This document shows positions 4,267 to 48,897 of a DNA stretch of 64,000 nt, one piece after another (position 1 is the stretch's first letter; the number at the start of each line of letters is the position of its first letter). The DNA is from Neisseria sp. 83E34 (GTDB lineage: Bacteria; Pseudomonadota; Gammaproteobacteria; Burkholderiales; Neisseriaceae): NCBI RefSeq assembly GCF_001308015.1, contig NZ_LGYH01000003.1:124001-188000 (forward strand). The letters run 5' to 3'. The notes beneath the pieces were generated by a model that ran no database searches, was not told where the DNA came from, and saw only the letters and a list, made by a program, of their open reading frames with translations. A program made the translations under genes and the position numbers.

Positions 4267-6264
4267 TTATAGGGATTCTTGATGTAAATCTGTAATTAGG
4301 TCTTTTGCAGAAAAATTACCAAGATTTTCTCGCCGAGTTTTGAGATTTTCTAATAAATAACCATTTATTAAATCAAATTCATCTAATAATGAATACCAAT
4401 TTTTTACGTAGCACTTAAATCTATCGTCATCCGTTACCAAACCGGGCTCTAGTTTATTTTTTAAAGAATTAATGCGTCCACGAATTTCAGTATCTGAACT
4501 TGATATTTTTCTACCAATAAGAATTAATTCAAAATATAAATTTTCACTACTAAACTCAGGGTGATTTTGTAGTATCCTTTTATAGTCATCTAACTGTCTT
4601 AGATGAGTATAGTTTAAAGCAATTGAGGGACGCTTAATTTCTATAATAATACATCTAAAAAATTTTTTTCCTGTTGGCGATACAAATGGAACCTTTCGTG
4701 CTAAAAATAAATCTACTTGCCTTTGAATTCCTTCTAGTTCTTCTGTATCAAGATTTTCACCATCTAAATCCTCTTGAGTTACTTTCCTAAAAATATCTGG
4801 TACCTTATTCCTCAAAGAATAAGCATTTTTTGTAAAATTATCTTCTTCTGCCCCAATAGTTTCATAGGCATTTCCAAACAACCAGGTATTATTTTCTATA
4901 ATTCCTTGAAGGTCAGGAGTTTCCAAAACTTCTTTATAATGAAGATTCATAATTTCTCTTAATTTATGAACAACATTTTCTCTACGTTGCAAAATTTCTA
5001 TTGTGCTAATAATATGCTCTAGTTTAGATTTGGAAATTTGTTGCGCTAGTTTTTTAGTGTTCTCTTGATCTAAGTTTAAAACATTTTCAATAATATCAAT
5101 TAATCCATCATTTTCATTTGAAATGGATAATCTATCAAGTAATTGAATAATAATTTTTTGCTGCTTTTTATTTAAATTACTGAAAATTTTAGGATCTGCC
5201 AAATATAATTCACGTACCAAATGTTTAGTGTTTTCTTTACGCCATTCTTTTTGTTCAATACTTAAAATATCTTTATAGTCGGGAAAGATACCATTCTTTT
5301 CGAATTGGGCAATTTTTTCCTCAACAATAGATTTTAGAAAATCATTGTATATTTTCCTTGTAAATTCAGTACATTCACTCTCTACTTTTTTCCATGTCTC
5401 TGACAATGGAGTGTAAATAGGTTTTTCTGATAATAAATCATTATCGTGAGTCGAGAAGTTATCAGCCCATTTTGAAATAATATATATACTGATGTAAAAG
5501 TCAGGTTTTTTATTAAAACTACTCAACTTTTTATAAACAACTTTATCGTAACTATTCAAAAGGTAAATATATGACTTCTCTGATGTAGGCTTCTTATCCC
5601 ATAAAAAAAGTTTAACCTCAAATTTATGTCCATCAATTAAGATTTGATGAGTAAATAATTCATGTGAAGGCGCTTTAATTACATTAGAGCCAAGCTTTAG
5701 GGTATGTGTATCATGTAGCGCAAGGAACCAACCAAACTCAATAGACAGTTTCTCTATTAATTGTTTATTATCTATACTAATCTTCGGAAATATTTCATTT
5801 AATTCAACACATGTTCCAGTATTTTTATTTTTTAAAGATAAATGTTGAGTAGTATCTTGTAATTCAATCCAAGGACATTGGATAAGGTCGATACTATTAA
5901 TGCTAATCCTAGCTTGCTTACCAAATTTATTCTTTGTGTACCAATCAGCCTTGTTTGCAAGCTTATGAAAAGCCAAGCGTCCTCTACCACGAGACCCATG
6001 TTGTTCAACATTGTCTTTTTTGGAAGAATCATTAAATTTACCAAAATTATCCTGAATGTTATCTATATCGATACCAGTCCCATCGTCAAGCACTGTTACT
6101 GCCTGTAAAGCATCCAGTTCACTTCTAGTTAAAATAATATCAACATTTTTAGCTTTGGCATCGAAACCGTTCCAAGCTAGTTCAATTATAGCTTGTTCAG
6201 GCTCTGTATTTTTGAAATGATTTTGTACTCCCGAATGAGTAATTTTCGTTTCTAACTTGTTCAT
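4267..6264 (-). CDS. GHKL ATPase with C-terminal Shedu-like (DUF4263) nuclease domain
   Basis: 665 residues from the ATG at 6264; an in-frame start at 6342 would overlap hrpA and lacks a better ribosome site. The N-terminus has the ATP-binding motifs of the GHKL (Hsp90/MutL/MORC) fold: E28-LAW-N32-GF-D35, DDGTG at 60-64 and GSRGRG at 90-95. A helical middle follows. Near residues 475-500 there is a TWLFG segment. Then D518 and E542-I-K544 form a PD-(D/E)XK pattern, with KVPDIF and IIIEIKRPS resembling Shedu (SduA, DUF4263). I infer an ATP-gated nuclease, probably anti-phage. The gene is clearly more AT-rich than its neighbours, carries no uptake sequence, and ends at a MITE-like repeat: signs of horizontal transfer. 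Function is untested. Confidence 0.62.
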   Translation of the reverse strand: MNKLETKITHSGVQNHFKNTEPEQAIIELAWNGFDAKAKNVDIILTRSELDALQAVTVLDDGTGIDIDNIQDNFGKFNDSSKKDNVEQHGSRGRGRLAFHKLANKADWYTKNKFGKQARISINSIDLIQCPWIELQDTTQHLSLKNKNTGTCVELNEIFPKISIDNKQLIEKLSIEFGWFLALHDTHTLKLGSNVIKAPSHELFTHQILIDGHKFEVKLFLWDKKPTSEKSYIYLLNSYDKVVYKKLSSFNKKPDFYISIYIISKWADNFSTHDNDLLSEKPIYTPLSETWKKVESECTEFTRKIYNDFLKSIVEEKIAQFEKNGIFPDYKDILSIEQKEWRKENTKHLVRELYLADPKIFSNLNKKQQKIIIQLLDRLSISNENDGLIDIIENVLNLDQENTKKLAQQISKSKLEHIISTIEILQRRENVVHKLREIMNLHYKEVLETPDLQGIIENNTWLFGNAYETIGAEEDNFTKNAYSLRNKVPDIFRKVTQEDLDGENLDTEELEGIQRQVDLFLARKVPFVSPTGKKFFRCIIIEIKRPSIALNYTHLRQLDDYKRILQNHPEFSSENLYFELILIGRKISSSDTEIRGRINSLKNKLEPGLVTDDDRFKCYVKNWYSLLDEFDLINGYLLENLKTRRENLGNFSAKDLITDLHQESL

Positions 6265-6323
6265 GGGTGTTGTCCTAGTGATTTTAAATCTATGAGATTC
6301 TACCTTTAAAAAGTTGTCAGTGT

Positions 6324-9227
6324 TTATTTGACATTCTCCCACTCCTTCAATAACCTCTTCACCGACACCGGACTAGGCGTCTTCAACTCCTGTGCAAACA
6401 ACGACACGCGCAGTTCTTCTATTTGCCATTTGAACATCTTCAGGCCGTCTGAAACGGGTTGGTTTTGTTTCAGCAAGCCGTCTGTTTTTTCTTGCCACAT
6501 CTGTTCCAACTCTTGAATATCGGCTTCGCGTGCGGCATCTCGTGCGGGGTTGGCGCTGTATTTTTCCATGCGCAGGGTCATGGCTTTGAGGTAGACGGGT
6601 AGGCGCGGCCATTGGCTCCAGGGGGTGCTGTTGGCGAATCCGGCGGACAGCAGGGTTTGGGTGCGTTCGCGCAGTAGGTGGGTAAGCGGGTGTTTGCCGA
6701 GTTTGCCGTTGAGTTCGGCGTAGGCAGCGGCGGTGTCTTGCAGATAGCGGCTCAGTGCCTCTTTAACGGCGGGCAGGCGGCTGCGGGCGCGTTTAATTTG
6801 TTCTTTAAAGGCTTTTTCACTGCGGGGCAATTCATCATCGCCGATAAAGGCGCGGTCGCAGACGGCGGCGGTAAGGTCGTCGCGCAGGGTGTCGGCGCTG
6901 ATATGTTTGAGCAGCATGGCGGCTTGGGTGAAGCCCGGTATGCCTTTGTTTAAATCTTTCATGTGCTCTTTGAGCTGGAGCTGCATGAGGGCGATCACGC
7001 CTTGGCGGTGGGCTTGTTCGGCGGCCTCGGGGGTGTCGAACAGGCGCAGGGCGATGGTGTTGTTTTTTTCTTTTTGCAGGGCGAGGTAGCCGGTGAGCTG
7101 TTGTTTGCCGCGGGCGAATTTGATGCTTTCAGGTAGCGTGCCGATGTCCCAGTTGGTGAGGTTGTCGCGCTCGAATTCTTGGGTGTTGTCGCGGAAGGTT
7201 ACGGCGGCCGCTTGGCCGAGCTCTTGTTGGAGTTTGGCTAAATCGCGGCCGGTGGCAAGCTCTTGGCCGCCGTCGTCGATGATGCGCAGGTTGAAATAGC
7301 AATGTTCGGGCAGTTTGAATGCGCTCCATTCGTCTTGGTCAATTTGTTCGAGCAGGCGCATGTCGCCGGCGGTTTTGGCGATAAAGCGGGCAAGCTGGGG
7401 AATCATCGGCTCTTGGCGGTTGGGGTTGCTTTCTAGAAATTTTGTGATGAAGTCGGGCACGGGCACGCAGATGCGGCGGATTTGTTTGGGCAGGGCTTTG
7501 ATGAGCAGTTGCAGTTTTTCGCGCAACATGCCGGGCACGAGCCATTCGAGCGCGGGCGCGTGGAGGCGGTTGAGCACGGTGAGCGGCAGGGTGAGGGTGA
7601 CGCCGTCGAGCGGGTGGTGCGGTTCGAAGCGGTAGCTGAGTTTGAATTTGCCGTCTGCGTTTTGCCAATGGTGGGGAAACTGGGCTTCGGTGATGTGCGC
7701 GGCGGCGTGCTGCATGAGGTCTTCGCGGGTGAGGAAGAGCAGGCGCGGGTTGTCGCGCTCGGCGGTTTTGAGCCAGCTTTGGAAGGTGCGGATGTCGGCG
7801 ATGGGGAGTGGTTTTTTCAGACGGCCTGTGTGCTTCGGGCTGCCTGAAAGGCCGTCTGAAACGGGGGTGGAGTTGTCGGGCTGGCATGTTCGACTTACGG
7901 TTTTGGTTTTGTCGGATACGGGAATCTGGCTTGTGTTTTCAGACAGGCCTGTATTGTCGGGCAGGGATACCCGACCTACGGTTTCCGACGGCTCGTAAAA
8001 CTGTGGCAAGCGCTGGTTGTAAAACTCAAACAAGGCCTCTTCGTCCACCAACACGTCCTGCTTGCGCGATTTGTGTTCCAACTCGCTGATTTCTTTAATC
8101 AGTTTTTTGTTGTGGATAAAAAAGGCTGTCTGAAGATTGCACTCCTGCGCCACGAGTGCGCCGCGGATAAAGATTTCGCGGGCTTCTTCGGGGGCGACTT
8201 TGCCATAGGCGACGGGGCGGCGCGGCAGCACGGTGAGGCCGTAGAGGGTAACGCGCTCGCTGGCGACAACTTCGCCGCGCTTCTGCTCCCAATGCGGCTC
8301 GAAATAGTGGTAGCGCACCAGGTGCGGGGCTTCCTGCTCGATCCATTCGGGCTGGATGGCGGCCACATCGCGGGCATAAAGGCGGGTAGTTTCGGTGAGT
8401 TCGGCGGCCATCACCCATTTGGGTTTGGATTTGAACAGGGCGGAGGCGGGGAACAAATGAAAGTGCGAACCGCGCGCGCCGGTGTAGTCGTGGCCGTCGG
8501 GCGATTTCATGCCGACATTGGCAATCAGGCCGGTCAGCAGGGTGCGGTGGATTTGTTCGTAGCCTGCTTCTTTGGCTGCGCGGATATGGGCGCGGTGCTG
8601 TTTTTTATCCAGTTGTTTTTGTTTGAGTTTGGCAGATAAATCTTGGTCGCCGGTATTTTCAGACGGCCTCAGTTGCTCTTGTGCAGGAGGCCGTCTGAAA
8701 GCCTGTTCTTTGGTGGTCAAACCCATTTCCACAGCGATGTCGGCAAGCTGGTGGTGCAGCTCGCGCCACTCGCGCATCCGCAGGTGGGAGAGGAAATATT
8801 GACGGCACCATTGCACCAGTTGTTTGTTGGACAAACCTTTATCGCGCTCGCGCTGGAAGCTGTCCCAAATATTCAGGTAGGCGAGAAAGTCGGACTGTTT
8901 GTCGGTAAAGCGTTCGTGCGCCTTTTGGGCGGCTTCGCGGGCTTCGAGCGGGCGTTCGCGCGGGTCTTGGATCGACAGAGCGGACACGATAACGAGTATT
9001 TCCGCCATACAGTCGTGCTTTTGCGCCGCCAGCAGAATGCGGGCGACTTTCGGGTCGATGGGCAAACGCGCCATTTGCTCGCCGAGTTTGGTTAGGCGGT
9101 AGCGGTTGCGGGGTTCAGGCAGGCTTGGTTTATCTGAGTGGAGGGGCAGGCTGCCTGAAAGGGGTTCAGACGGCATGTTGTAGTGGATTTTGGTGTTTTG
9201 CATATACTGAAAATTTTTAGACGGCAT
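6324..9227 (-). CDS. hrpA: HrpA RNA helicase, C-terminal part of a split gene
   Basis: 967 residues matching HrpA from the end of the winged-helix/ratchet region (RYRLTKLGEQMARLPIDPKV) through the OB-fold to the long DUF3418 tail. It lacks the helicase motors, which are encoded at 11228-12625. The first 45 or so residues are DUS-derived (MPSKNF, MPSEPLSGSLP). The ATG follows the reverse-transcriptase stop by one base (TAACATG), so translation could be coupled to that gene. Residues about 415-480 are a linker built from uptake sequences and other repeats. Whether the two halves make a working helicase is unknown; I treat the gene as interrupted. Confidence 0.85.
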   Translation of the reverse strand: MPSKNFQYMQNTKIHYNMPSEPLSGSLPLHSDKPSLPEPRNRYRLTKLGEQMARLPIDPKVARILLAAQKHDCMAEILVIVSALSIQDPRERPLEAREAAQKAHERFTDKQSDFLAYLNIWDSFQRERDKGLSNKQLVQWCRQYFLSHLRMREWRELHHQLADIAVEMGLTTKEQAFRRPPAQEQLRPSENTGDQDLSAKLKQKQLDKKQHRAHIRAAKEAGYEQIHRTLLTGLIANVGMKSPDGHDYTGARGSHFHLFPASALFKSKPKWVMAAELTETTRLYARDVAAIQPEWIEQEAPHLVRYHYFEPHWEQKRGEVVASERVTLYGLTVLPRRPVAYGKVAPEEAREIFIRGALVAQECNLQTAFFIHNKKLIKEISELEHKSRKQDVLVDEEALFEFYNQRLPQFYEPSETVGRVSLPDNTGLSENTSQIPVSDKTKTVSRTCQPDNSTPVSDGLSGSPKHTGRLKKPLPIADIRTFQSWLKTAERDNPRLLFLTREDLMQHAAAHITEAQFPHHWQNADGKFKLSYRFEPHHPLDGVTLTLPLTVLNRLHAPALEWLVPGMLREKLQLLIKALPKQIRRICVPVPDFITKFLESNPNRQEPMIPQLARFIAKTAGDMRLLEQIDQDEWSAFKLPEHCYFNLRIIDDGGQELATGRDLAKLQQELGQAAAVTFRDNTQEFERDNLTNWDIGTLPESIKFARGKQQLTGYLALQKEKNNTIALRLFDTPEAAEQAHRQGVIALMQLQLKEHMKDLNKGIPGFTQAAMLLKHISADTLRDDLTAAVCDRAFIGDDELPRSEKAFKEQIKRARSRLPAVKEALSRYLQDTAAAYAELNGKLGKHPLTHLLRERTQTLLSAGFANSTPWSQWPRLPVYLKAMTLRMEKYSANPARDAAREADIQELEQMWQEKTDGLLKQNQPVSDGLKMFKWQIEELRVSLFAQELKTPSPVSVKRLLKEWENVK
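7810..7985. repeat. Intragenic block of mixed uptake sequences in hrpA
   Basis: Within about 175 bases there are two AG-dialect cores (about 7817 and 7852), a GGCTGCCTGAA (about 7839), a TTCAGACAGGC (about 7938), and two copies of a GTCGGG...CGACxTACGGTTT repeat (about 7876 and 7958). All stay in frame and encode a low-complexity linker. Such elements are normally intergenic. Confidence 0.7.
8656..8699. repeat. Inverted AG-dialect uptake pair inside hrpA
   Basis: TTCAGACGGCCT and AGGCCGTCTGAA lie 18 bases apart within the coding sequence, in the region after the ratchet domain. Confidence 0.8.
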
Positions 9228-9228
9228 G

Positions 9229-10203
9229 TTATTTTTCAGGCTGTTGAAAGTATCTCGGCTGTATATTATCCAATCGTTGTAGCAACTGTTCAGCTTGTAC
9301 TGTATGGAATTGTTTTAAATGAAATACCTTGCCTTTGGCTGAATTAAACAGTTTCTCATAAGCAGTAACATGTATTTCCTTATTTTGAAAGGCCTGTTCG
9401 CATTTAAAAACTATGGCGCGAATTTCTTTTCGTTTTTCTTTTGGAAGTGTTGGCTTGCCTACTGAAACATTTATATTATTCACAGTTTGCTGATGGCCTT
9501 TATGCATAACCTTGTGCTTTTTTCGATTGGATTTTGCATCAACACTATGAAAGAGTGAATAAATTTTGCCGATAATTTTTTGTGTTTCTGCTTTGCTTAA
9601 ATTCCTTTTAGCAGAAACCGTTACATCGTCAACAAACCTTGTATAAACAAGTCCTTGCTTTTGAAATTCAGTAACCAAATCTGCTTCACGCTGCCACCAA
9701 ATCAAATTACATAAAAAGCCACTAACCTTACTTCCCTGTACCAAGTATCCTTGATAAGTTACCAATTCAGCTAAGCAATCGGCAACATCATGAGGAAAGT
9801 GGAAAAATCCAGTCCATACTTGATGAACTATTTTTTTGCTGATGCTTGGGAAAAAATTAGAAATGTCTTCTTTAATGAGAATGTTCATTCCGATGTGTTG
9901 TTTAGCATTAGTTATACTGCTGCGTTTGTGAATTCCGCCTTGCAAATATTCGGGGTAATCCAATATTTTGAAAAATTTTTTAGCAATTTTTTCGTGAATA
10001 ATTTTTAATCTATGATGAACGTTATAGGTATCCCGAAAAGTACCATCAGCTTTTTCTTTACGCTCATGCAGGAAATAGAATGAATTAGAATATTGCCGTA
10101 AATAAAGCAACTCTTTTAATGTAATACCTAAGCAAATAGCCAGTTTTTCTAAACTGGCTATGGGTTTGTGTGGATAACAAAAAGAAACAGGTTTATTCAT
10201 CAT
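9229..10203 (-). CDS. Retron-like reverse transcriptase
   Basis: 324 residues from the ATG at 10203, which overlaps the end of the XRE gene (GGTGG lies just upstream; a TTG at 10212 is a weaker choice). Motifs in order: N99-AKQ-H103, the NxxH motif of retron reverse transcriptases; D113-ISNFFPSI with the first catalytic aspartate; QGSKVSGFLCNL at 156-167, where most retrons have QGxPTSP; FVDD at 190-193 with the catalytic pair; and VNNINVSVGK at 241-250, where retrons have VTG. The order and spacing are those of bacterial retron/group-II-type enzymes. The changed RT4 and VTG motifs make it divergent. It is the last gene of the cassette and its stop abuts the hrpA fragment. Confidence 0.8.
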   Translation of the reverse strand: MMNKPVSFCYPHKPIASLEKLAICLGITLKELLYLRQYSNSFYFLHERKEKADGTFRDTYNVHHRLKIIHEKIAKKFFKILDYPEYLQGGIHKRSSITNAKQHIGMNILIKEDISNFFPSISKKIVHQVWTGFFHFPHDVADCLAELVTYQGYLVQGSKVSGFLCNLIWWQREADLVTEFQKQGLVYTRFVDDVTVSAKRNLSKAETQKIIGKIYSLFHSVDAKSNRKKHKVMHKGHQQTVNNINVSVGKPTLPKEKRKEIRAIVFKCEQAFQNKEIHVTAYEKLFNSAKGKVFHLKQFHTVQAEQLLQRLDNIQPRYFQQPEK

Positions 10204-10480
10204 TGCCACCAATTGCAGATAAAGCCAATGCCGATAATTTTTCTGATAATTCTGTACTCATACCGGCTTTTTCATCTGCATCTGCTGCCAAAAACATTAA
10301 AACCGTTGATGGAATTTGTAAAGCTAGGCAGATTTTTTCAAGTGTAGATAAATTTGGGTCTCGCTTACCCTGTTCTAACAGTGTTAAATAAGAAACTGAT
10401 AATCCAGAATTTTCTGCCAGTTTAGTTTTGGTAAATCCTTTTTGGTTGCGACATAATTTAATCGCTCTACCAATATTCAT
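10193..10480 (-). CDS. XRE-family HTH regulator of the reverse-transcriptase cassette
   Basis: 95 residues. The Cro/C1-type helix-turn-helix fills residues about 6-60: KTKLAENSGLSVSYLTLLEQ is the HTH, followed by GKRDPNLSTLEKICLALQIP. The short tail is acidic. Its 3' end overlaps the reverse-transcriptase start by about 10 bases, so the two proteins are probably made in fixed proportion. HTH proteins are the accessory partner in one class of retrons; by family knowledge it may act as toxin, repressor or both. No operator was identified. Confidence 0.82.
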   Translation of the reverse strand: MNIGRAIKLCRNQKGFTKTKLAENSGLSVSYLTLLEQGKRDPNLSTLEKICLALQIPSTVLMFLAADADEKAGMSTELSEKLSALALSAIGGNDE

Positions 10481-10534
10481 TATCTAGCTCCTTATCATAG
10501 AATAATAAAAAGCAACCTGTTGCACCCAAGCCCA

Positions 10535-10753
10535 TTATTTATCCAGTAATTGCATAATGCCGCGAATTACTGGCAAACATTCCAAGACTGCTCCCAAAAT
10601 TTGCAGCAACTTAGATTTTGTCAAATCATCATGCTGTTCCAAATCCTGAATAACTTGGTCTAGTTTTGCTTGTGTGCTGCTATCCATATCATCATGCATT
10701 TCCATTTTCAACTGTTTTAAAGTATCAATGGTATTTTTCAAAAGAATTTTCAT
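10535..10753 (-). CDS. Small helical protein of unknown function, first gene of the cassette
   Basis: 72 residues. I do not recognise the family. Residues 1-40 are predicted to be amphipathic helix rich in Lys, Asp and Gln (TIDTLKQLKMEMHDDMDSST). Residues 50-72 are hydrophobic (LLQILGAVLECLPVIRGIMQ) and could insert in a membrane or bury in an oligomer. GAAAG lies 7 bases before the ATG. It is in the same direction as, and 54 bases before, the XRE gene, so it belongs to the same unit. A hydrophobic small effector is possible but unproven. Confidence 0.55.
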   Translation of the reverse strand: MKILLKNTIDTLKQLKMEMHDDMDSSTQAKLDQVIQDLEQHDDLTKSKLLQILGAVLECLPVIRGIMQLLDK

Positions 10754-11078
10754 AATAAATCTTTCATTTAACAGGGCGACATTGCCCAGTCGTCAAACAA
10801 TACCGAACCGTTAAGAAATGGTATGGATAGCACAGGTTGCTTTCGTATTACTGCTTATTGCATTGCTTTCAATGCAATAAGCAGCTTCCAGTCGTTTATG
10901 TGATTTAACTAGGCTTCAGGTTGCTTAGCTTTACTTCGGCTACCCATTCCTAATCAGAACGCGGAAGTAGTTTACCTTTTAGGGTAAACGACACGAAAGT
11001 GCCACTGTCATGTTCGGTACATCAGATTATTATCTTTTGAAATGCATCGAGCCGATTGCAGCTCGTCCATAGGTTGGC
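10754..11078 (-). ncRNA. Structured untranslated region, candidate retron msr-msd RNA
   Basis: No gene lies between hrpA-N (ends 11228) and the 72-residue gene. On the minus strand a strong promoter (11079-11107) would start RNA near 11072. The transcript contains three clear hairpins: CGAGC/GCTCG at 11048-11065, GTTTACC/GGTAAAC at 10970-10989, and a perfect 15-bp stem with a 4-base loop at 10851-10884. The last is flanked by direct repeats AAGCAACCTG (10833-10842 and 10917-10926, plus coordinates). Position directly upstream of the cassette and its fold fit an msr-msd RNA. I could not find a convincing a1/a2 end pairing, so the limits are guesses. Confidence 0.42.
10851..10884. repeat. Perfect 15-bp hairpin in the cassette leader
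   Basis: CTGCTTATTGCATTG pairs exactly with CAATGCAATAAGCAG around the loop CTTT. There is no T-run, so it is not a normal terminator. It is the best candidate for the msd stem. Confidence 0.7.
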
Positions 11079-11107
11079 ATAATAGCAGATACTCTTTTAA
11101 AGTGCAA
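11079..11107 (-). promoter_or_regulatory. Sigma-70 promoter of the reverse-transcriptase cassette
   Basis: On the minus strand TTGCAC (11107-11102) and TATTAT (11084-11079) are 17 bases apart, close to consensus. It lies inside the inserted cassette and points toward the small ORF, the XRE gene and the reverse transcriptase. Confidence 0.65.
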
Positions 11108-11227
11108 TATTTTTTGACTGGAAGTTAAAAAATATTCATTTTCGAGTAAATCTTTTGAGATTTGATACAAAACCCAATACTGTCTGAGATATTTGGGTTT
11201 ATCAATGCAAGCTAAGGGTTTTGCTTT

Positions 11228-12625
11228 TCAGACGGCTTCTTCCACCGCCCCCAGTTCCAACAACACCTGAAACCCATCATTAATATATCGCTGATCCGGC
11301 GCTTCGAGGAACGGAAACGCGGCCACATCGCCCAGTTTCAGCGCAGCCATGCGAAGGATGACGGCGGCCAGATTGCTGCGGATGATTTCGGGGTCGGTGA
11401 AGGCGGGGCGGGTGTTGAAATCGTCTTCGCTGTACAGGCGCACGGCTACGCCTGCCGACACGCGTCCGCAGCGGCCGGAACGCTGGCGTGCGGCGGCTTG
11501 GGAGATTTTTTCCACATGAAGCTGCTCCACTTTGGCGCGTGCGGAATAGCGTTTGACCCGCGCCAAGCCGGTGTCGATCACATACCGAATGCCCGGTACG
11601 GTGAGCGAGGTTTCGGCCACGTTGGTTGCCAACACGATGCGCCGTTTGTTGCCGCTGGGGTGGAAAATTTTGTGTTGTTCGGCGTTCGACAAACGGGCAA
11701 ACAGCGGCAGGATTTCATCGTCGCGGCGCAGCGGCGATTTGCGCAGGGCTTCGGCGGCTTCGCGGATTTCGCGCTCGCCGGGCAGGAACACCAGAATATC
11801 GCCGTCGCCCAGCCGCGCCAGTTCGTCGGCGGCATCGACAATCGCGTCGGTCAGCTCGATTTCCGCTTCGTCTTCGTTTTGCGAATGCAGCGGGCGGTAG
11901 AGAATGTCCACGGGGAAGGTGCGTCCGCTCACTTCCAGCACGGGCGCATTGTTGAAATGCTTGGAAAAGCGTTCGGCATCAATGGTGGCCGAGGTGATGA
12001 TAACTTTCAAATCGGGGCGGCGCGGCAAAAGCTGTTTCAGGTAGCCGAGCAGAAAATCAATGTTAAGGCTGCGTTCGTGGGCTTCGTCAATAATAATCGT
12101 GTCGTAGGCGGTGAGGAAGCGGTCGGTTTGCGTTTCGGCAAGCAGAATGCCGTCGGTCATCAGCTTCACATAGGCATCGCGCGAGGTGTTGTCGTTGAAG
12201 CGCACTTTATAGCCTACGGTTTGGCCGATGCTGCTGCCCAATTCTTCGGCAATCCGCTCCGCTACCGAACGCGCCGCCAACCGCCGCGGCTGCGTGTGCC
12301 CGATCAAACCGGCCGCACCGCGCCCCAACTCCAAGCAGATTTTTGGCAGTTGGGTGGTTTTGCCCGAACCGGTTTCGCCGCAAATAATGGTTACTTGGTG
12401 GTTTTGAATGGCTGCTTTGATGTCGTCCAAACGTTCGTGCACCGGCAGCGTGCCGTCATACTGCGGCTTGGGCAGCGCGGTTTGGCGTTTTAAAAACGTG
12501 TCGTGCGATTTTTGGTATTTTTTCTGCACGGCTTCGATGCCGCCGAAGCGTTTGGGGTTTTTGAAGGCGTTTTGCAGGAAATGGCGGTCGCGGGAGAGCG
12601 TTTGGGTGAAGTCGGGCTGCTGCAT
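11228..12625 (-). CDS. hrpA: HrpA RNA helicase, N-terminal motor part of a split gene
   Basis: 465 residues from the ATG at 12625; a TTG at 12637 is an alternative. It holds the whole DEAH-box core: Walker [31 protein letters not shown] and motif [12 protein letters not shown], then the start of the winged helix. Intact HrpA is about 1,300 residues. Here it stops at [11 protein letters not shown], where the last codons and TGA are an uptake-sequence core (GCC GTC TGA). The rest of the protein is encoded at 6324-9227, beyond a 2-kb insert. HrpA is a 3'-5' RNA helicase that rescues stalled ribosomes. The core alone might keep ATPase activity. Confidence 0.88.
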
Positions 12626-12671
12626 GGTGTGTATCAATAATGAGGGAACTAAAGGTTGTGATTATAACAAA

Positions 12672-12701
12672 ATGCCTGTCTGAAAGTTTTCAGACAGGCA
12701 T
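12672..12701. terminator. Inverted DUS pair between phhB and hrpA
   Basis: Two facing TGCCTGTCTGAA copies with a short loop end the phhAB transcript (minus strand). They lie just upstream of hrpA, next to a TATAAT-like hexamer (12666-12661, minus). Confidence 0.78.
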
Positions 12702-12716
12702 TGGTGGTGATGGTGT

Positions 12717-13058
12717 TTATGCTTCTAAAAGGGCGTCTGTTTTGGCGGCCATGATGAAATCATTGCGATGCAGACCTTTGATGCTGTGCGACCACCAGGT
12801 TATGGTTACTTTGCCCCATTCGGTGAAAATGCCGGGATGGTGGCCTTCGGCTTCGGCTAAGTCGGCCAGCCGGTTGCTGAAGGCCATGGCTTGTTTGAAG
12901 TTTTTGAAAGTAAATACGCGCTTCAGCTGCAATATCCCGTCGATTACAACCGGCTGCCATTCCGGAATCATGCGTATCAGTTCGGCCAGCTCTTCATTGC
13001 TGACTTTAGGTGCGTCGGCACGGCAGGCTTCGCATGGTTGTTTGGCTAGTTCGTTCAT
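12717..13058 (-). CDS. phhB: Pterin-4a-carbinolamine dehydratase
   Basis: 113 residues, normal length. The active-site motif [20 protein letters not shown], with the third histidine in WWSH, is complete. The enzyme removes water from the 4a-hydroxy-tetrahydrobiopterin made by PhhA, so the cofactor can be reduced again. The gene starts 10 bases after phhA on the same strand, so they form an operon. The N-terminus has two extra cysteines (CEAC) not needed for catalysis. Confidence 0.95.
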
Positions 13059-39951: not shown

Positions 39952-41415
39952 ATGCAAACATTAACCGCATACATCAACGGCGCCTATGCCGCCGCCGATT
40001 CACAGGCCGAAACTTTTGAGAATATCAATCCGGCCAATGGCGAAGTGCTCGCAGTGGTGCAGCAAAGCAGCCCGTCGGAAATCGAAACCGCCGTTCAGAC
40101 GGCCATAGCGGGCCAGAAAATCTGGGCGGCGATGACGGCTGTAGAACGCAGCCGCATCCTGCTCAAAGCCGTAGCCATTTTGCGCGAACGCAACGACGAA
40201 TTGGCGCGCATCGAAACCTTGGATACCGGCAAACCCCTGTCTGAAACCTTGTATGTCGATATCGTTACCGGCGCGGATGTGATTGAATATTATGCAGGTT
40301 TGGCGCAAGCCGTCGAAGGACGCCAGATTCCGCTGCGCGACACCGCGTTTGCCTACACCCGCCAAGAGCCGTTGGGCGTGGTGGCGGGCATAGGCGCGTG
40401 GAACTATCCGATTCAGATTGCCATGTGGAAAGCCGCGCCTGCATTGGCGGCGGGTAATGCCATGATTTTCAAACCCAGCGAAGTTACGCCCACCGGCGCG
40501 CTGAAATTGGCGGAAATCTTCACCGAAGCGGGGCTGCCCGATGGCGTGTTCAACGTCGTTCAAGGCGACTGGCGCGTGGGCGAGGCGTTGAGCATCCATC
40601 CGCAGATTGCCAAAGTATCGTTTACCGGCGGCGTGGCAACAGGCAAAAAAGTGATGTCGCAGGCCGCCGCGTCTTCGCTGAAAGAAGTTACGATGGAGCT
40701 GGGCGGCAAATCGCCACTGATTATCTGCGACGATGCCGATTTAAATCTGGCCGCCGATATTGCGCTGATGGCCAATTTTTACAGCTCCGGCCAAGTTTGT
40801 ACCAACGGCACGCGCGTGTTTGTGCCTGTGAACAAAAAAGAAGCGTTTGAAGCCAAAGTGCTGGAACGCGTTGCCCGCATCCGTGCCGGCGACCCGCTCG
40901 ACGAAAACGTGAACTTCGGCCCGTTGGCGAGCTTCCCGCATATGGAAAAAGTGTTGGTCTATATTGAAAAAGGCAAAGCCGAAGGCGCGCGTCTTTTAGC
41001 GGGCGGAGGCCGTCTGAAAGAAAACGGCATGGCAAACGGCGCTTACGTTGCCCCCACCGTGTTCACCGACTGCACCGACGAAATGGCCATCTGCCGCGAA
41101 GAAATCTTCGGCCCCGTGATGAGCATTTTGGCCTACACCACCGAGCCGGAAGTGATCGTGCGCGCCAACAACACCGAATACGGCTTGGCCGCAGGCGTGG
41201 TGACACCCGACGTGAAACGCGCTCACCGCATCATCGGCCAGCTTCAGGCGGGCATCTGTTGGGTTAACGCTTGGGGCGAATCGCCCGCACAAATGCCCGT
41301 GGGCGGCTACAAACAATCCGGCATCGGCCGCGAAAACGGCATCCAAACGCTGATGCACTATACGCAAACCAAATCAGTGTTAGTGGAATTGGGGGATTAT
41401 CAATCGGTATTTTGA
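39952..41415 (+). CDS. betB: Betaine aldehyde dehydrogenase
   Basis: 487 residues from the ATG at 39952, with AAGGAG upstream. It has the family motifs [35 protein letters not shown] and the catalytic cysteine in [14 protein letters not shown]. It oxidises betaine aldehyde to glycine betaine with NAD+, the second step after BetA. Two internal uptake sequences are AG dialect (about 40103 and 41008), although the gap before it is TG dialect, so the gene may have been imported. Its partners betT and betA lie 13 kb downstream on the other strand. Confidence 0.92.
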
Positions 41416-41476
41416 GGCCGTCTGCAGTTTTTAGCTTCTCGGAAACCCGCAGCATTGCTTGTTTTCAGACAGGCAT
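41416..41476. repeat. Mixed-dialect uptake pair with conserved spacer
   Basis: AGGCCGTCTGCA (AG dialect, changed) on the left and TTCAGACAGGCA (TG dialect) on the right flank AGCTTCTCGGAAACCCGC, the spacer also seen at 19280-19342. Confidence 0.6.
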
Positions 41477-41573
41477 TCACGTTGAGTTTTTGAGATTATC
41501 GCAACTTCAACTGCGTCCACAATACGGATAACCATATCTAAAATCCATTCTCAAACCGCCCCATCTCAAACAC

Positions 41574-41612
41574 AGGCCGTCTGAATCTTTGCCATAAGTT
41601 TTTAGACGGCCT
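41574..41612. repeat. Inverted AG-dialect uptake pair
   Basis: AGGCCGTCTGAA faces a one-mismatch copy (TTTAGACGGCCT) 15 bases away, followed by TTTTG; a possible terminator. Confidence 0.7.
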
Positions 41613-41681
41613 TTTGCTATGATGCGCAGTTGCGATACGTTGCTTACTCATTTTTTATAAAACATCAAATAAGGGATAACT

Positions 41682-42158
41682 ATGAATCATCCGAAAAGGC
41701 TGCATTCGCTCCAGCAAAGCCGCAGCTATCACTCGGCAAAAAAAATCAGCTATTGGCTTGATGATAACTACCTCGACGGCGTGATCGGTTTGGTGCCGGT
41801 GGTCGGCGATATCTTGTCGCAGAGTTTTCATGCAGTGTTTTTGTATTTGTCTGCGGTAAAGCTGCGTTCGGCGCGGCTAACGCTGGTCATTTTGTTCAAC
41901 AGCCTGCTGGATATCCTCATCGGCCTGATTCCGTTTCTGGGCGAGGTGTTGGACTTTGTGAATAAATCCTACAAACGCAATCTGGCTTTGATTGAAGGTT
42001 TTGCGTCGGGGGATAAGGCAGTAGTCAGCCGGGTAAACCGCCAGGCGGCGATGGCGGCGGTGGGAATTGTGTTGTTGCTGGTGGGTATTGTGATGCTGGC
42101 GAAATGGACGTTCTCCTTGCTGGTGGCGCTGTATCATTGGCTGCCGGGTTTGTTTTGA
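41682..42158 (+). CDS. DUF4112-family small membrane protein
   Basis: 158 residues. The pattern LDGVIGLVPVVGDILSQSFHA and then IDIL-like LLDILIGLIPFLGEVLDF is that of DUF4112. Three or four hydrophobic segments are expected, with a conserved KSYKRNLALIE after the second. The family has no known role. AAGGGA precedes the ATG. It is not linked to betB by function as far as I can see. Confidence 0.78.
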   Translation: MNHPKRLHSLQQSRSYHSAKKISYWLDDNYLDGVIGLVPVVGDILSQSFHAVFLYLSAVKLRSARLTLVILFNSLLDILIGLIPFLGEVLDFVNKSYKRNLALIEGFASGDKAVVSRVNRQAAMAAVGIVLLLVGIVMLAKWTFSLLVALYHWLPGLF

Positions 42159-42325
42159 TCGATTGCTGTGAAATGCAGCTAAGCGATTGAAACAGGCATC
42201 GAACAATAGGGCGGGATAAAGCCGGTTAGCTTAGTGCTTCGATTATTGTATGGTTATATGAAGGTTTAGCCCGCCACTGTTGTTTTCCTTGAAATGGGTT
42301 GAAATATGTTATGATTTTATGAGGC

Positions 42326-42339
42326 TTGATTTAAATCAA
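42326..42339. promoter_or_regulatory. FNR/CRP-type palindrome before the LEA-like lipoprotein
   Basis: TTGATTTAAATCAA, identical to 14541-14554. It is centred about 38 bases before the ATG. If GATAAT (42343) is the -10, the site would overlap the promoter and suit a repressing role. Confidence 0.4.
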
Positions 42340-42370
42340 GCTGATAATCTAATTTACGAGAGGATCAGAT

Positions 42371-42796
42371 ATGAAAAAATTTTTAGCTATCGCAATGGCT
42401 GTTGCTGCGCTAGGTGCTTGCTCGCAAGAGACCAAACAGGAAACCAAAGAAGCTGCACAGGCGGTTAAAGAAGATGTGAAAGGTGCTAAAGATCAAGCTG
42501 CATCTGCCGTTGATTCAGCAGTACACAATGCAAAAGAAGCGGGTGCGGAAGCGAGTGCAGCGGCTAAAGAGGCGGCAACCGAAGCCAAAGATATGGCCAA
42601 AGAAGCCGCACAAGCAACCAAAGAAGCAGCCCACGATGCCACTCAGGCAACCAAAGAGGCAGCTCACGATGCCACTCAGGCAACTAAAGAAGCAGTTCAC
42701 GATGCTGCGCAAGCAACCAAAGAAGCTGCGCATAAAGCGAAAGATGCTGCCAAAGATGCTGTTAATGCCGCTAAGGAAGCTACCCAAGGCAAGTAA
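42371..42796 (+). CDS. Alanine/lysine-rich lipoprotein with LEA-like 11-residue repeats
   Basis: 141 residues. A lipoprotein signal ends in lipobox LGAC (Cys17). The remainder has almost only Ala, Lys, Glu, Asp, Thr, Gln and His, arranged in 11-residue units such as TKEAAHDATQA, which predicts one long amphipathic helix. This resembles group-3 LEA and apolipoprotein-like repeats, and also other repeat lipoproteins of Neisseria. Function could be envelope stress protection; this is inference. Four 33-base DNA repeats (42614-42745) allow length change by slippage. GAGAGGA is the ribosome site. A good terminator follows. Confidence 0.72.
   Translation: MKKFLAIAMAVAALGACSQETKQETKEAAQAVKEDVKGAKDQAASAVDSAVHNAKEAGAEASAAAKEAATEAKDMAKEAAQATKEAAHDATQATKEAAHDATQATKEAVHDAAQATKEAAHKAKDAAKDAVNAAKEATQGK
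42614..42745 (+). repeat. Four tandem 33-base coding repeats
   Basis: Units begin at 42614, 42647, 42680 and 42713, each starting GCAAC(C/T)AAAG. The first two are nearly identical. Each encodes one 11-residue unit of the lipoprotein. Confidence 0.85.
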
Positions 42797-42827
42797 GTAT
42801 TTATTTGTAAATGAGAGGTTTGATGCG

Positions 42828-42858
42828 AACACAGACTCGATGATTCCGGGTCTGTGTT
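42828..42858 (+). terminator. Intrinsic terminator of the LEA-like lipoprotein gene
   Basis: AACACAGAC pairs with GTCTGTGTT around a 13-base loop and is followed by TATTTTAAA. Confidence 0.75.
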
Positions 42859-43103
42859 TATTTTAAAGATTCAGTTGCATATATGACCAATCAAGTTACT
42901 TTGTGCTACGGTGTTGCTGCGTCTTGACTGAAAGAGACGGCTTGGAATTTTATAGCCGTAAGCAATGCCTGTCTGAAAACCAATGGCTGGACGTTGGGTT
43001 TGACTTGGCGTATTCTTCAATGGAACACAAAAAATAGCGAAGGTGTTCCATTTTTAATGTGTAAAAGCCCGCCGCTTCCGACTAAAAATATTCAATTTCC
43101 GCC
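42859..43103. other. Left boundary region of the hydroxyproline cluster
   Basis: It holds a single MITE-like end (TATGACCAATCAAGTT, about 42882), one uptake sequence (42964) and the left direct repeat at 42985-43020. No gene is seen. Confidence 0.5.
42985..43020 (+). repeat. Left direct repeat flanking the hydroxyproline cluster
   Basis: 36 bases containing TGGGTTTGACTT match 50607-50642 in 31 of 36 positions, in the same orientation. Confidence 0.6.
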
Positions 43104-43856
43104 ATGCCTCCGGTTTTTTTCCCTCCCTCGGTTCAGCCGCAGCATTTAGACGATTTAATCCGCAGCCTGAACATGTTTGCACCTGTGTTGCAGGTGCTGC
43201 CCAGCACGGTGTTTTTCGTGAAAAACACGCGGGCGGAGTATGCTTTTGCCAACGATACGCTGCTGCAACGGCTGCAACTGCCCGATATGGCGGCTTTGAT
43301 TGGTAAAACGTCGGAAGATTTGTTTCAATCGGAGTGGGGGCAGCATTACACGCAGCAGGACAGGGAAGTGTTGAGTGAGGGCAAAACCATCAGCAACAAG
43401 CTGGAGCTGCATACTTATGCTTCGGGCGAATTGGGCTGGTGTATCACGCATAAAATGCCCGTGCGCAATCCGCAGGGCGAGATTATCGCGATGCTTGGTG
43501 TGTCGGTGGACGTGGAAACCAACGACAGCAACCGCCCCGAGCTGAACAAAAAAATCGCGCTGATTGAAAAATACATCGCCGGCCATTTCGACCAAAGCAT
43601 CAAAATGAAAGACTTGGAAGCCGTTTCCCGCCTTTCCACCGCCCAAATCGAGCGGTATTTCAAAAAGATTTTCCACATCACGCCTTCGCAATACATTCAA
43701 AAAGTGCGCATTGAAGCGGCGATGGCGATGCTGGAAACGGGCTTGTCGGTAACGGAAATTTCCGCCCGTTGCGGCTATTCCGACCACAGCGCGTTTACGC
43801 GGCAATTTAAGGCGCTGGTGGGCTTATCGCCGTCTGAATTTAAGAAATCGAGATAA
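43104..43856 (+). CDS. PAS-AraC transcriptional regulator
   Basis: 250 residues. A PAS domain (about residues 25-140: FFVKNTRAEYAFANDTLLQR, ending AMLGVSVDVE) precedes an AraC/XylS double HTH (about 150-250: MKDLEAVSRLSTAQIERYFK, then ARCGYSDHSAFTRQFK). The PAS domain probably senses hydroxyproline or a product. It lies first in the cluster, same direction, so it is the likely activator. The last codons include an AG-dialect uptake core (GCCGTCTGAA). Confidence 0.83.
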   Translation: MPPVFFPPSVQPQHLDDLIRSLNMFAPVLQVLPSTVFFVKNTRAEYAFANDTLLQRLQLPDMAALIGKTSEDLFQSEWGQHYTQQDREVLSEGKTISNKLELHTYASGELGWCITHKMPVRNPQGEIIAMLGVSVDVETNDSNRPELNKKIALIEKYIAGHFDQSIKMKDLEAVSRLSTAQIERYFKKIFHITPSQYIQKVRIEAAMAMLETGLSVTEISARCGYSDHSAFTRQFKALVGLSPSEFKKSR

Positions 43857-43872
43857 CGTCGGAAGTATAGAA

Positions 43873-43906
43873 ATGCCTGTCTGAAAAATGTTTTTCAGAC
43901 AGGCAT
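43873..43906. terminator. Inverted DUS pair after the AraC regulator
   Basis: TG-dialect pair. It separates the regulator from the catabolic genes. Confidence 0.8.
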
Positions 43907-44027
43907 TTCTGTTTTGAGTGCGCCTCAGTATGCCCATTTCTGCAAAAAAATCGGGAAATTCATCAAGACGGCGGCAGCGGCGGTTTTGTAAGGTTAGCGG
44001 AAGTTTGTTTAGCGATAGGATTTTGCC

Positions 44028-44978
44028 ATGCCGCATACCGAATACACTTTTTCCGTGATTGATTCCCATACCGGCGGCGAGCCGACCCGCGTGGTGTACG
44101 GCGGGTTTCCCGAGCTTTCCGGCAGCAGCTTGCAGGAGCAGTGCGCCGATTTTGCCGAACGTTTCGACCATTTGCGCCGCGCGCTGATTTTGGAGCCGCG
44201 CGGTTCGGACGTTTTGGTGGGGGCCTTGTTGTGCAAGCCGCAAGACCCCGCTTCTGCCGCCGGCGTGATTTTCTTCAACAACAGCGGCTATTTGGGCATG
44301 TGCGGCCACGGCACCATCGGCCTGATTAAAACGCTGCAACATCTCAAACGCATTGATGTCGGCACGCACACCATCGAAACGCCTGTCGGCAATGTGCGCT
44401 GCACGCTGCATGAAGACGGTTCGGTCAGCGTGCGCAACGTGCCGGCCTACCGCTACCGCAAAGACGTGCCGCTCAATGTACCCGGCATAGGCAGCATCAC
44501 GGGCGATATTGCGTGGGGCGGCAACTGGTTTTTCTTGGTTAACGACCACGGCTGCACCATCGCCCCCGACAATCTGGAGCAGCTCACCGACGTTTCATGG
44601 CGCATCCGCACTGCGCTGAACGAGCAGGGCATCACCGGCAAAGACGGGCAGGAAATCGACCATATCGAGCTTTTCGGCAAAACCGACACGGCCGACAGCC
44701 GCAGCTTCGTACTCTGCCCGGGCAAAGCCTACGACCGCTCGCCCTGCGGCACGGGCACCAGCGCGAAAATGGCCTGCTTGGCTGCCGACGGCGTGTGGCC
44801 GTCTGAAAAAGAATGGATACAGGAAAGCGTGATCGGCAGCCGCTTTGCCGCGTCTTACGAACTGCTTTCAGACGGCATGATAGTGCCTACCATCAAAGGC
44901 GGGGCGCACATTCATGCCGCGGCGGAGATTTTTGTGAACGCGGACGATCCGTTCCGCTACGGAATCGAAACATCATGA
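44028..44978 (+). CDS. lhpA: 4-hydroxyproline 2-epimerase
   Basis: 316 residues of the proline racemase family. Both catalytic cysteines are present (C92 in MCGHGTIG; C240 in SPCGTGTSA), which separates it from the dehydratases of the same family that have threonine at one site. It converts trans-4-hydroxy-L-proline to cis-4-hydroxy-D-proline. Internal uptake sequences are AG and AT dialect (about 44797 and 44867). Its stop overlaps the next start (ATGA), so it is coupled to the dehydrogenase. Proline racemase is an alternative, but the neighbours favour hydroxyproline. Confidence 0.87.
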
Positions 44979-46228
44979 GCGGGCGGGTTTTTTCTGCAGC
45001 CGTGGTCGGCGGCGGCATCGTCGGTTTGAGCATTGCGCTGGAATTGCAGCGCTGCGGCGAAAGCGTGCTGCTGCTGGAGCGCGATACCGTGTGCGGCGGC
45101 GCGTCTTACGGCAATGCCGGGCATATCGCTACCGAGCAAGTGTTTCCGATTGCATCGCCCGACGTGCTCAAGCAGCTGCCGAAAATGCTGCTCGACCCGC
45201 TCGGCCCGTTGCGGCTGGACTGGAAATATCTGCCCAAAATCACGCCGTGGCTGTTCAGCCTGCTGCGTAACCTCACGCCCGAACGCTTCCAACGCAGCCA
45301 CCGCGCCCTGATGGCGCTCAACAGCCGCGCTTTACCGGCATGGCAGGCGTTTGCGCGCGAATGGGGCGTAGAACGGCATATCCGCATCGAAGGCTCGCTG
45401 CTGGTGTGCGAAACCGAAAGCGGGCAGGCGGCGTTGCAGAAACACGGCAGGGCGTTGAATGAATTGGGCGTGGCCAACGAATGGCTCGACCATGCCCGCC
45501 TGCACGAGCGCGAACCGGCACTGGCCGATACACAGTGCGGCGCGCTGTTTTATCCCGATACCGGCCATGTGGTCGATTTGGCGGGCATGGCGGCCGACTT
45601 GCAGAGCGCATTCATACAGGCGGGCGGCACGGTAAGTGAACATACCGACGTTTCCGACATCCAATTGTTTTCAGACGGCCTGTTCCGCATTATCGGCGGC
45701 GGCAAGGCGTTTGACGCCAAACGGGTGGTAATTGCCGCCGGCGCGTTTTCCAAGCCGTGGCTGAAAAAGCTGTGCGGCGCCGATATTCCGCTTGACACCG
45801 AACGCGGCTACCACCTGATGCTGCCGCAAAGCCGAGATATTTTGAACGTGCCGGTAAGCAGCTTCGAGCGCAAATTCATCATGACGCCCATGAACGCGGG
45901 CTTGCGCTTGGCCGGAACGGTGGAGTTCGCCGGGCTGGACGCGCCGCCGAATATGGAACGGGCGGAGCAACTGTTCCGCTTGGCAGAGCCGATGCTCAAA
46001 GGCCGTCTGAACCGCCAAGGCGCCGTGCCGTGGATGGGTTTCCGCCCGTCGATTGCCGATTCTCTGCCGGTAATCGACCGCAAAGAGAACATTTTGCTGG
46101 CATTCGGGCACCAGCATTTGGGGCTGACCCAAGCACCGTTGACCGCGCAATTGGTAAAAGCCCTGTATTTCGGCGAACAGCCTTTAATTGATTTGAGCCC
46201 TTACCGTTTTAACCGTTTCGGCAGCTAG
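44975..46228 (+). CDS. lhpB: D-hydroxyproline dehydrogenase (DadA-like flavoprotein)
   Basis: 417 residues from the ATG at 44975 inside the epimerase stop. The FAD motif [16 protein letters not shown] is at residues 10-25. The DAO-fold C-terminus ends with [17 protein letters not shown]. It oxidises cis-4-hydroxy-D-proline to a pyrroline hydroxy-carboxylate and passes electrons to the chain. It has AG-dialect uptake sequences within (about 45669 and 46003). D-amino-acid dehydrogenase of broader range is an alternative. Confidence 0.83.
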
Positions 46229-46231
46229 AAA

Positions 46232-46273
46232 GTCCGAGTATGACGGATGTAGTTTTTTAAGTTGATTCACTAT
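46232..46273. repeat. Partial Correia-like MITE
   Basis: Only the right half (CCGAGTATGACG and then TTAAGTTGATTCACTAT) is present, between lhpB and lhpC. Confidence 0.55.
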
Positions 46274-46295
46274 TTATCTCAAGAGGAGAAGCATC

Positions 46296-47159
46296 ATGAA
46301 CATCGAAGGTATTTTAGTTCCCATCGTGACCCCGTTTACCGCCGACAATCAGGTCGATACCGCTTTGCTGGCCGAATTGGTGGATGCGTTTATCGCCAAA
46401 GGCGTGCGCGGCATTGTGGCTTGCGGCACTACGGGCGAGTATTACGCTTTGTCGGAAGCCGAGCGCGAAACCGTGCTGAACACCATTGTGAAAGCCGCCG
46501 CCGGCCGCTGCACGCTGATTGCGGGTGTCAGCGATATGTCGAGCGAAGTGGCCGCACAACGCGCTATCCGCGCCAAAGAGCTGGGATTCGACGGCCTGAT
46601 GCTGTCGGCGCCGCCATACAGCCTGCCGTCGCAACAAGGCATCATCGAGCACTTTGAATATGTGGCTTCCAAAACCGATTTGCCGATTATTCTCTACAAT
46701 TTCCCCGCGCGCATCGGTGTAGAACTCGAATTCGACACCGTGGCGCATTTGGCCAAACATCCCAACATTGTCGGCATCAAAGAAAGCACCGGCAATTTTT
46801 CCAACGCGCTGCGTATGATTCAGGCCAAATTCGATAATTTCCAAGTGGTGTGCGGCTGCGACGACCAGCCTTTGGATTTCTTCTTCTGGGGCGTGAAAAG
46901 CTGGATTGCCGGCGCGGCCAACGTGTTCCCGGGCGAGCAGGTTGCCCTGTTTAACGCCGCTCAAGCCAAAGATTGGGACAAAGCGCGCCAGATTCTCACC
47001 GACCTCTATCCCGCCCTGCATTCGATGGAATCGGGCGACTACAACCAAAAAGCCAAAATCGGCTGCTTAAACGGCACCAAACCCGCCGGCAAAGTGCGCC
47101 TGCCGCTGCACAATCTGACCGCACAAGAAGCCGCCGAATTTACGGCTTTGTTGAAATAA
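46296..47159 (+). CDS. lhpC: Pyrroline-4-hydroxy-2-carboxylate deaminase (DapA superfamily)
   Basis: 287 residues. TIM-barrel of the dihydrodipicolinate synthase / N-acetylneuraminate lyase family with the pyruvate-site loop GTTGEYYALS, the tyrosine in ILYNFPARIG and the Schiff-base lysine in GIKESTGNF. True DapA would be expected in another setting; here the neighbours indicate the deaminase that gives 2-oxoglutarate semialdehyde. RBS AGAGGAG is close to the ATG. Confidence 0.8.
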   Translation: MNIEGILVPIVTPFTADNQVDTALLAELVDAFIAKGVRGIVACGTTGEYYALSEAERETVLNTIVKAAAGRCTLIAGVSDMSSEVAAQRAIRAKELGFDGLMLSAPPYSLPSQQGIIEHFEYVASKTDLPIILYNFPARIGVELEFDTVAHLAKHPNIVGIKESTGNFSNALRMIQAKFDNFQVVCGCDDQPLDFFFWGVKSWIAGAANVFPGEQVALFNAAQAKDWDKARQILTDLYPALHSMESGDYNQKAKIGCLNGTKPAGKVRLPLHNLTAQEAAEFTALLK

Positions 47160-47187
47160 GTTTCGAACCGCTTGCCTTGTTACAGTT

Positions 47188-47295
47188 CGTCATACTCAGG
47201 CTTGACCCGAGTATCTCCTGAATTTACCGGAGCTATAGATACTCGGGTCAAGCCCGAGTATGACGAGCGTACTATGTTTAAGTTGATTCACTATA
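47188..47295. repeat. Double palindrome MITE between lhpC and the aldehyde dehydrogenase
   Basis: A 28-base arm (47189-47216) and its inverted copy (47237-47264) differ at one base. Each also contains the dRS3-like GGGCTTGACCCGAGTAT core. The right end is TTAAGTTGATTCACTATA. The stem may reduce read-through. Confidence 0.7.
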
Positions 47296-47355
47296 AGTGT
47301 GTTCAAAAATATCCAACCTTTCTTGAGAGAGGTTTCCGAACGAAAAGGAGTGTAG

Positions 47356-48825: not shown

Positions 48826-48840
48826 CAAAAAACAAAACTC

Positions 48841-48897
48841 AGGCCGTCTGAAACCCGTAGGTTTCTGCGAAGCCCAAAGTGTTTTTTCAGACGGCCT
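48841..48897. repeat. AG-dialect DUS pair with conserved spacer
   Basis: Two AGGCCGTCTGAA copies face each other around a spacer (CGTAGGTTTCTGCGAAGCC) like those at 19280 and 41416. Unlike most gaps in this genome, both ends are AG dialect. Confidence 0.75.

Follow-up and report, generated by a model that had tools for sequence, protein, structure and literature searches.

In the majority of the Neisseria species covered here, the core gene hrpA is split into two reading frames, and very probably the gap between these stably kept halves is a site of cassette exchange. In the scenario that we favour, hrpA was presumably split in an ancestor of most of the genus, within a loop of the winged-helix domain. 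The first half would then end at a stop codon supplied, in most lineages, by a DNA uptake sequence, and the second half would have acquired a start codon of its own, together with a short leader that likewise bears uptake sequences. The two halves are expected to assemble into a two-chain HrpA, and whole-gene cassettes would be swapped in the gap by homologous recombination in the hrpA halves, with natural transformation as the presumed route. In the genome studied here, the cassette that occupies the gap is a type VI retron.

The window analysed is a stretch of 64,000 nucleotides from Neisseria sp. 83E34, in which the ORF map places hrpA-N, a 474-nt untranslated stretch, a 72-aa ORF, an XRE gene, a reverse transcriptase (RT) gene and hrpA-C in this order on the minus strand; all features located below lie on that strand. 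An earlier note on this DNA had described hrpA as lying in two parts around an RT cassette of about 2 kb, all on one strand, and both the ORF map and Pfam agree. hrpA-N (11228..12625), the helicase core of HrpA, ends with GAVEEAV and a stop; its ORF opens at TTG 12637, with an in-frame ATG at 12625. The DNA uptake sequence GCCGTCTGAA is located at 11227..11236, and its TGA terminates hrpA-N. It is followed by a probable retron non-coding RNA with uncertain ends (10755..11100), the 72-aa small protein of type VI retrons (SP, 10535..10753), the XRE/HTH protein of type VI retrons (10193..10480) and the retron RT (9229..10203), the start of which overlaps the end of the HTH gene, the listed RT ORF opening at TTG 10212. 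hrpA-C (6324..9203; listed ORF 6324-9227) encodes the remainder of the winged-helix domain together with HA2_C, the OB fold and DUF3418, and begins with a leader (9108..9203) that combines a conserved start, ATGCAAAAC, with an uptake sequence, GCCGTCTGAA, at 9165..9174; unsplit hrpA does not have this leader. The Pfam models Helicase_C in hrpA-N and HA2_C, OB_NTP_bind and DUF3418 in hrpA-C were matched, and the winged-helix model HA2_N is interrupted by the split, positions 15-29 of 29 being found in hrpA-C at 15.5 bits, under the cut-off of 21. The intervening DNA amounts to 2,123 nt between conserved hrpA residues and has 37% GC, next to flanks that are short. hrpA-N has a single match in its own genome, and the intact hrpA elsewhere that the earlier note had considered is absent, as a genome search detected no second or intact copy. 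A promoter and terminator scan of 9000-11400 was uninformative (8 and 2 predictions vs 6.5 and 2.4 in shuffles). Just downstream of hrpA, at 4267-6342 of the window, lies a gene with a GHKL ATPase domain whose protein is 100% identical in G006, where it is also located beside hrpA, and which is otherwise missing from the genus except for a weak match in G038. The 3' end of hrpA looks like a second exchange site.

The 46 genus genomes, our own included, were searched with each hrpA half and the loci were then read. In 33 of them hrpA is split after the same codon, with halves that are complete or nearly so and a gap of 999 to 10,575 nt between them; the hrpA-C frame is broken in two of these genomes (G023 and G042). 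An intact, unbroken hrpA was found in nine genomes, hrpA is interrupted by contig ends in two (G031 and G033), and one genome that is 68% complete (G030) has no match. In G013 (L045 and L046), both halves are located on a single contig, oppositely oriented and separated by about 35 kb. Among the 37 other genomes of the family, 33 are continuous over the site, two are split (G048 and G082), one has the N-half only (G049) and one, 60% complete, is without an hrpA match (G073). Named loci are continuous in 73 of 80 cases, and the other seven are labelled Neisseria, Bergeriella or an Eikenella MAG. On the contig of this Eikenella MAG (L080 10001-19864), an hrpA-N 97% identical to that of the window is followed by an NYN-domain gene and other genes, and hrpA-C was not found on the same stretch. 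One of the 33 continuous hrpA genes of these other family genomes (G066, L187 1753-1850) carries a 96-nt in-frame insert, encoding a repeat-like peptide, in the same loop. When placed on E. coli HrpA structures (PDB 6zww, 9gft and others), the split point falls just after ELGA(I/V), where loop lengths differ; E. coli HrpA is homologous across the split region but forms one chain, whereas two ORFs are found here. In an hrpA tree of 51 rows, built by a quick method with no bootstrap, leaving out G042 and G057 for their short C-parts and concerning a gene that may itself recombine, the split or intact state needs four changes and none of 500 shuffles needed as few; a single clade (SH-aLRT 98) comprises 33 split rows and two intact ones (G002 and G036). 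The simplest account would be a single split and two returns to or retentions of intact hrpA, with the split in G082 either separate or imported.

The leaders of hrpA-C were surveyed at 35 split loci, namely the 33 of the genus together with G048 and G082. hrpA-C starts with ATGCA in 32 of these and with ATGAAC in two; G035 has neither, ATA replacing the conserved ATG. The distance from this start to the RYRL codons takes 16 in-frame values between 30 and 123 nt, and 33 of 34 loci are in frame with no internal stop. Leader lengths that vary yet stay in frame match the prediction of a translated leader; inspection of the leaders by eye revealed no clear ribosome-binding site. In G021 (L054, position 3961, just before hrpA-C), the leader is one base off frame beside a run of C, which could be phase-variable or a sequencing error. 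It is unlikely that hrpA-C is expressed only through the cassette by translational coupling, as might be suggested by the sequence TAAcATG at 9225-9231, where the RT stop and an upstream hrpA-C ATG (9227) are one base apart. Cargo ORFs of at least 150 aa all run in the hrpA direction at 21 of 33 loci, as coupling would have it, but all run in the opposite direction at four and lie on both strands at eight. In addition, the retron cassette of G021 is without the one-base spacing, and it is a later ATG, at 9203, that represents the conserved start.

In 22 of the 35 split loci, hrpA-N stops at the TGA within GCCGTCTGAA or GTCGTCTGAA, and in the other 13 its stop lies outside an uptake sequence; a loose pattern finds an uptake-like string in 30 of the 35 leaders; these counts are taken over related loci and hence are not independent. 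The commonest uptake sequence in the window is CCTGTCTGAA, with 63 copies against 25 of GCCGTCTGAA, whereas the hrpA locus (6324-12637) contains one CCTGTCTGAA and seven GCCGTCTGAA (Fisher p 0.0005). The locus therefore differs in uptake dialect from its surroundings, as if it had been imported. Twelve of the 25 GCCGTCTGAA copies in the window are concentrated in 40094-48886, against the commoner CCTGTCTGAA type, and this stretch may be another imported tract. The names of the uptake dialects are those given in excerpts of PMC3630211.

Both hrpA halves are under purifying selection. The median dN/dS is 0.125 for the N half (476 of 528 pairs) and 0.184 for the C half (496 of 528 pairs) among the 33 split genomes, and 0.105 (20 of 136 pairs) and 0.192 (30 of 136 pairs), respectively, among 17 intact genomes; these are pairwise NG86 estimates restricted to dS of 0.05-1.0, with G023, G042 and G057 excluded, and the pairs are not independent. 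That both halves have stayed under selection argues for a two-chain HrpA, which they probably make. It is quite improbable that hrpA is instead dispensable and decaying in Neisseria, the gap being a tolerant landing place and the halves relics: the broken hrpA-C of G023 and G042 and the out-of-frame leader of G021 would fit such decay, but the dN/dS values resemble those of intact genes, and the leader start keeps its frame at all but one of the 34 loci mentioned above. In G012 and G028 (L044 7653-7853 and L061 6245-6499), the final ~70-80 residues of hrpA occur a second time about 0.8 kb downstream of the gene.

The cargo of the 33 genus loci, reduced to overlap-filtered ORFs, comprises 93 proteins and 42 cluster representatives of at least 80 aa, of which the Pfam scans covered 34 and the PADLOC scans 28. 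A PADLOC match at E ≤ 1e-40, to the protein or its cluster representative, was obtained at 16 of the 33 loci, a count that applies to this site alone. Besides the type VI retron, present in the window's genome (G000) and in G021, the defence cargo includes Mokosh (G040, G041 and G045), AriAB (G006), PDC-M01 (G044), DarTG (G010), the TIR system PDC-S35 (G001), SoFic (G003), a GmrSD-like system (G022), and restriction-modification (R-M) or methylase genes (G005, G009, G012, G017 and G025). The other 17 loci yielded no defence match among the ORFs scanned, and they carry a sulfatase-fold protein, PIN7 proteins, thioredoxin and SDR genes, hydrolases and unknown proteins, as well as a cold-shock-domain protein with a Y1 transposase. 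Y1 (IS200-like) transposase genes (L036 2513-3070 and other cargo) and inverted repeats GTCGGGCAT..ATGCCCGAC occur around several of the hrpA cargoes.

Three stacked loci preserve pieces of hrpA inside the gap. In G045, two cargoes are separated by a duplicate of the hrpA-C start joined directly to a duplicate of the hrpA-N end, and between an R-M system and a sulfatase gene there is a decayed hrpA-N end in G005 and a decayed hrpA-C start in G025. Such relics are the expected marks of recombination between hrpA halves, and they count against the proposal that the site is the target of a cargo-carrying transposon of the RAYT/Y1 or IS1595 type. This proposal, for which we see little likelihood, draws on Y1 transposase-like genes in G004 (by Pfam), G011 (same cluster) and G082 (87% identity to the G011 gene), on an IS1595-type transposase in G048 and on the inverted repeats near some cargo ends; at the other loci, the window's included, no transposase family was found in the cargo scanned. 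The transposase genes at four loci do leave room for other entry routes.

Judged by its proteins, the cassette in the window is a type VI retron with the ordinary protein set of that type. All three of its proteins match PADLOC type VI models (RT_VI 3e-75, HTH_VI 3e-28 and SP_VI 7.3e-35), and Pfam assigns RVT_1 to the RT and HTH_3 to the XRE protein. The RT is typed by profile match, with RT_VI as the best model at 251 bits and RT_V close behind at 240, and for the XRE protein HTH_VI is far above the next model; the type VI call stands despite the narrow RT margin because the partner proteins agree. The nearest solved chains by sequence (12 matched) are retron RTs, with Ec86 first (3.9e-19). 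The catalytic DD motif (as FVDD) and the QG motif are kept, and VNN occupies the position of the retron VTG motif, where relatives also have variants. The leader at 10755-11100 folds at -104 kcal/mol vs a shuffle mean of -77.8 (sd 4.7; z -5.5), with 0 of 100 shuffles as good; an Rfam scan of 8000-13000 returned three matches only, every one below its gathering score. An Alteromonas plasmid retron has an RT that is 49.5% identical, the same SP-HTH-RT order, hairpins in the same order and a 3' block in common, and the stem sequences of its hairpins differ, in a comparison made by eye on three sequences. The gene order is also the same on a Pseudomonas plasmid, so that the cassette resembles type VI retrons on both plasmids in its SP-HTH-RT order behind a folded RNA; no feature that would distinguish it was found, its placement in split hrpA belonging to the host site. 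These observations uphold the retron-type identity claimed by the earlier note, through the PADLOC models for three proteins and the nearest solved chains, and replace its adjective "divergent" by an ordinary type VI set. The RT and the RNA presumably produce msDNA, while regulator and effector of an abortive defence against phage would presumably be the XRE protein and the small protein. With the window's genome counted, SP_VI matches were obtained in 5 of 369 genomes of the class and the RT, at E ≤ 1e-40, in 6 of 398 genomes of the phylum, and the same RT occurs in 2 of the 46 genus genomes (G000 and G021). A search of viral contigs for relatives of the RT or of its RNA block found none. Weak RT_VI matches, which probably represent other RTs, were also obtained downstream of split hrpA, at distances of about 2 kb and 8 kb (G028:C59:105319-105744 and G044:C1:1023922-1024368).

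The retron cassettes of G000 and G021 are 93.5% identical over 1,992 nt, in contrast to 85.5% for hrpA-N and 83.0% for hrpA-C, and dS between these genomes is 0.14 for SP, 0.19 for HTH and 0.27 for the RT vs 0.58 and 0.66 for the hrpA halves. The contrast with the flanks in both measures supports the view that the cassette has moved between the two species, and "moved" in the earlier note holds if taken as such a transfer. The opposite pattern is seen for Mokosh in G040 and G041, whose cassettes are 78.3% identical between flanks of 95.2% and 94.3%; as these cassettes are less alike than the flanks, separate histories follow for them too. The other 10 of the 12 cassette pairs are uninformative, with identities that lie between the flank values or at most 3 points from one. 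Close relatives of the window's genome (G006, G027, G040, G041 and G045) have an hrpA-N that is 97% identical, the same split codon and quite different cargo, and the retron therefore occupies an already split site. That its arrival in this lineage disrupted a hitherto intact hrpA, as the earlier note had it, is most improbable: the retron does sit between the halves, its RT is confined in the genus to the two genomes named above and relatives outside the genus are mostly unsplit, but 31 of the 33 genus genomes split at this codon are without the retron and the halves are under purifying selection. Comparison of hrpA among related Neisseria, which the earlier note had suggested, thus revealed the same split without the retron in close relatives, and the retron as the cause of the split is refuted by them.

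By the definition in excerpts of PMC3898611 and PMC3082526, the hrpA site resembles the minimal mobile elements of Neisseria in holding different whole-gene cassettes, R-M systems included, at one place between conserved sequences; here the varied cassettes were observed at 33 genus loci, compared across species and not strains. It differs from these elements, as described in the same excerpts, in that it is flanked by the halves of one gene, each its own ORF, and not by two genes, and in that uptake sequences supply one half with its stop and the other with a portion of its leader. Incorporation by homologous recombination alone, as in minimal mobile elements, would fit the hrpA relics and the contrasts between cassettes and flanks, and the transposase genes at four loci leave room for other routes. 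hrpA does not feature in the literature covered on minimal mobile elements. According to excerpts of PMC5379612, a 23-gene, probably plasmid-derived defence segment lies in an HrpA-like helicase gene, described as disrupted, in one lineage of Propionibacterium acnes, so that hrpA-like genes are hit elsewhere as well. Defence genes within an hrpA-like gene are common to both cases, but the Neisseria site has short cassettes, occurs in many species and keeps its halves. The mentions of hrpA in excerpts of PMC4553322, PMC9998046, PMC3960869 and PMC9072670 mostly refer to an unrelated HrpA adhesin or to a transcript list. The literature covered, in such excerpts, contains no earlier report of the hrpA site; the Snyder 2007 inventory lies outside that scope, and an earlier notice is possible.

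The E. coli relative of HrpA, a DEAH-box RNA helicase, splits stalled ribosomes. As a tentative extension of the exchange-site reading, most Neisseria might possess a two-subunit DEAH-box helicase whose split would maintain itself as a docking site. Whenever a defence cassette is exchanged, both subunit ends would be renewed, as uptake sequences provide one subunit's stop and a portion of the other's leader, and some cassettes would be translationally tied to the second subunit. The distribution of the split constitutes a natural experiment, with a conserved helicase in two parts across most of the genus and intact in nearby species, and two-chain function is directly testable. The site also gives accessory and defence genes in Neisseria a mapped address, and cargo without an assigned defence role thereby becomes a short list of candidates, among them proteins of 400 aa (G042), 271 aa (G035) and 373 aa (G012) and the PIN7 protein of four genomes.
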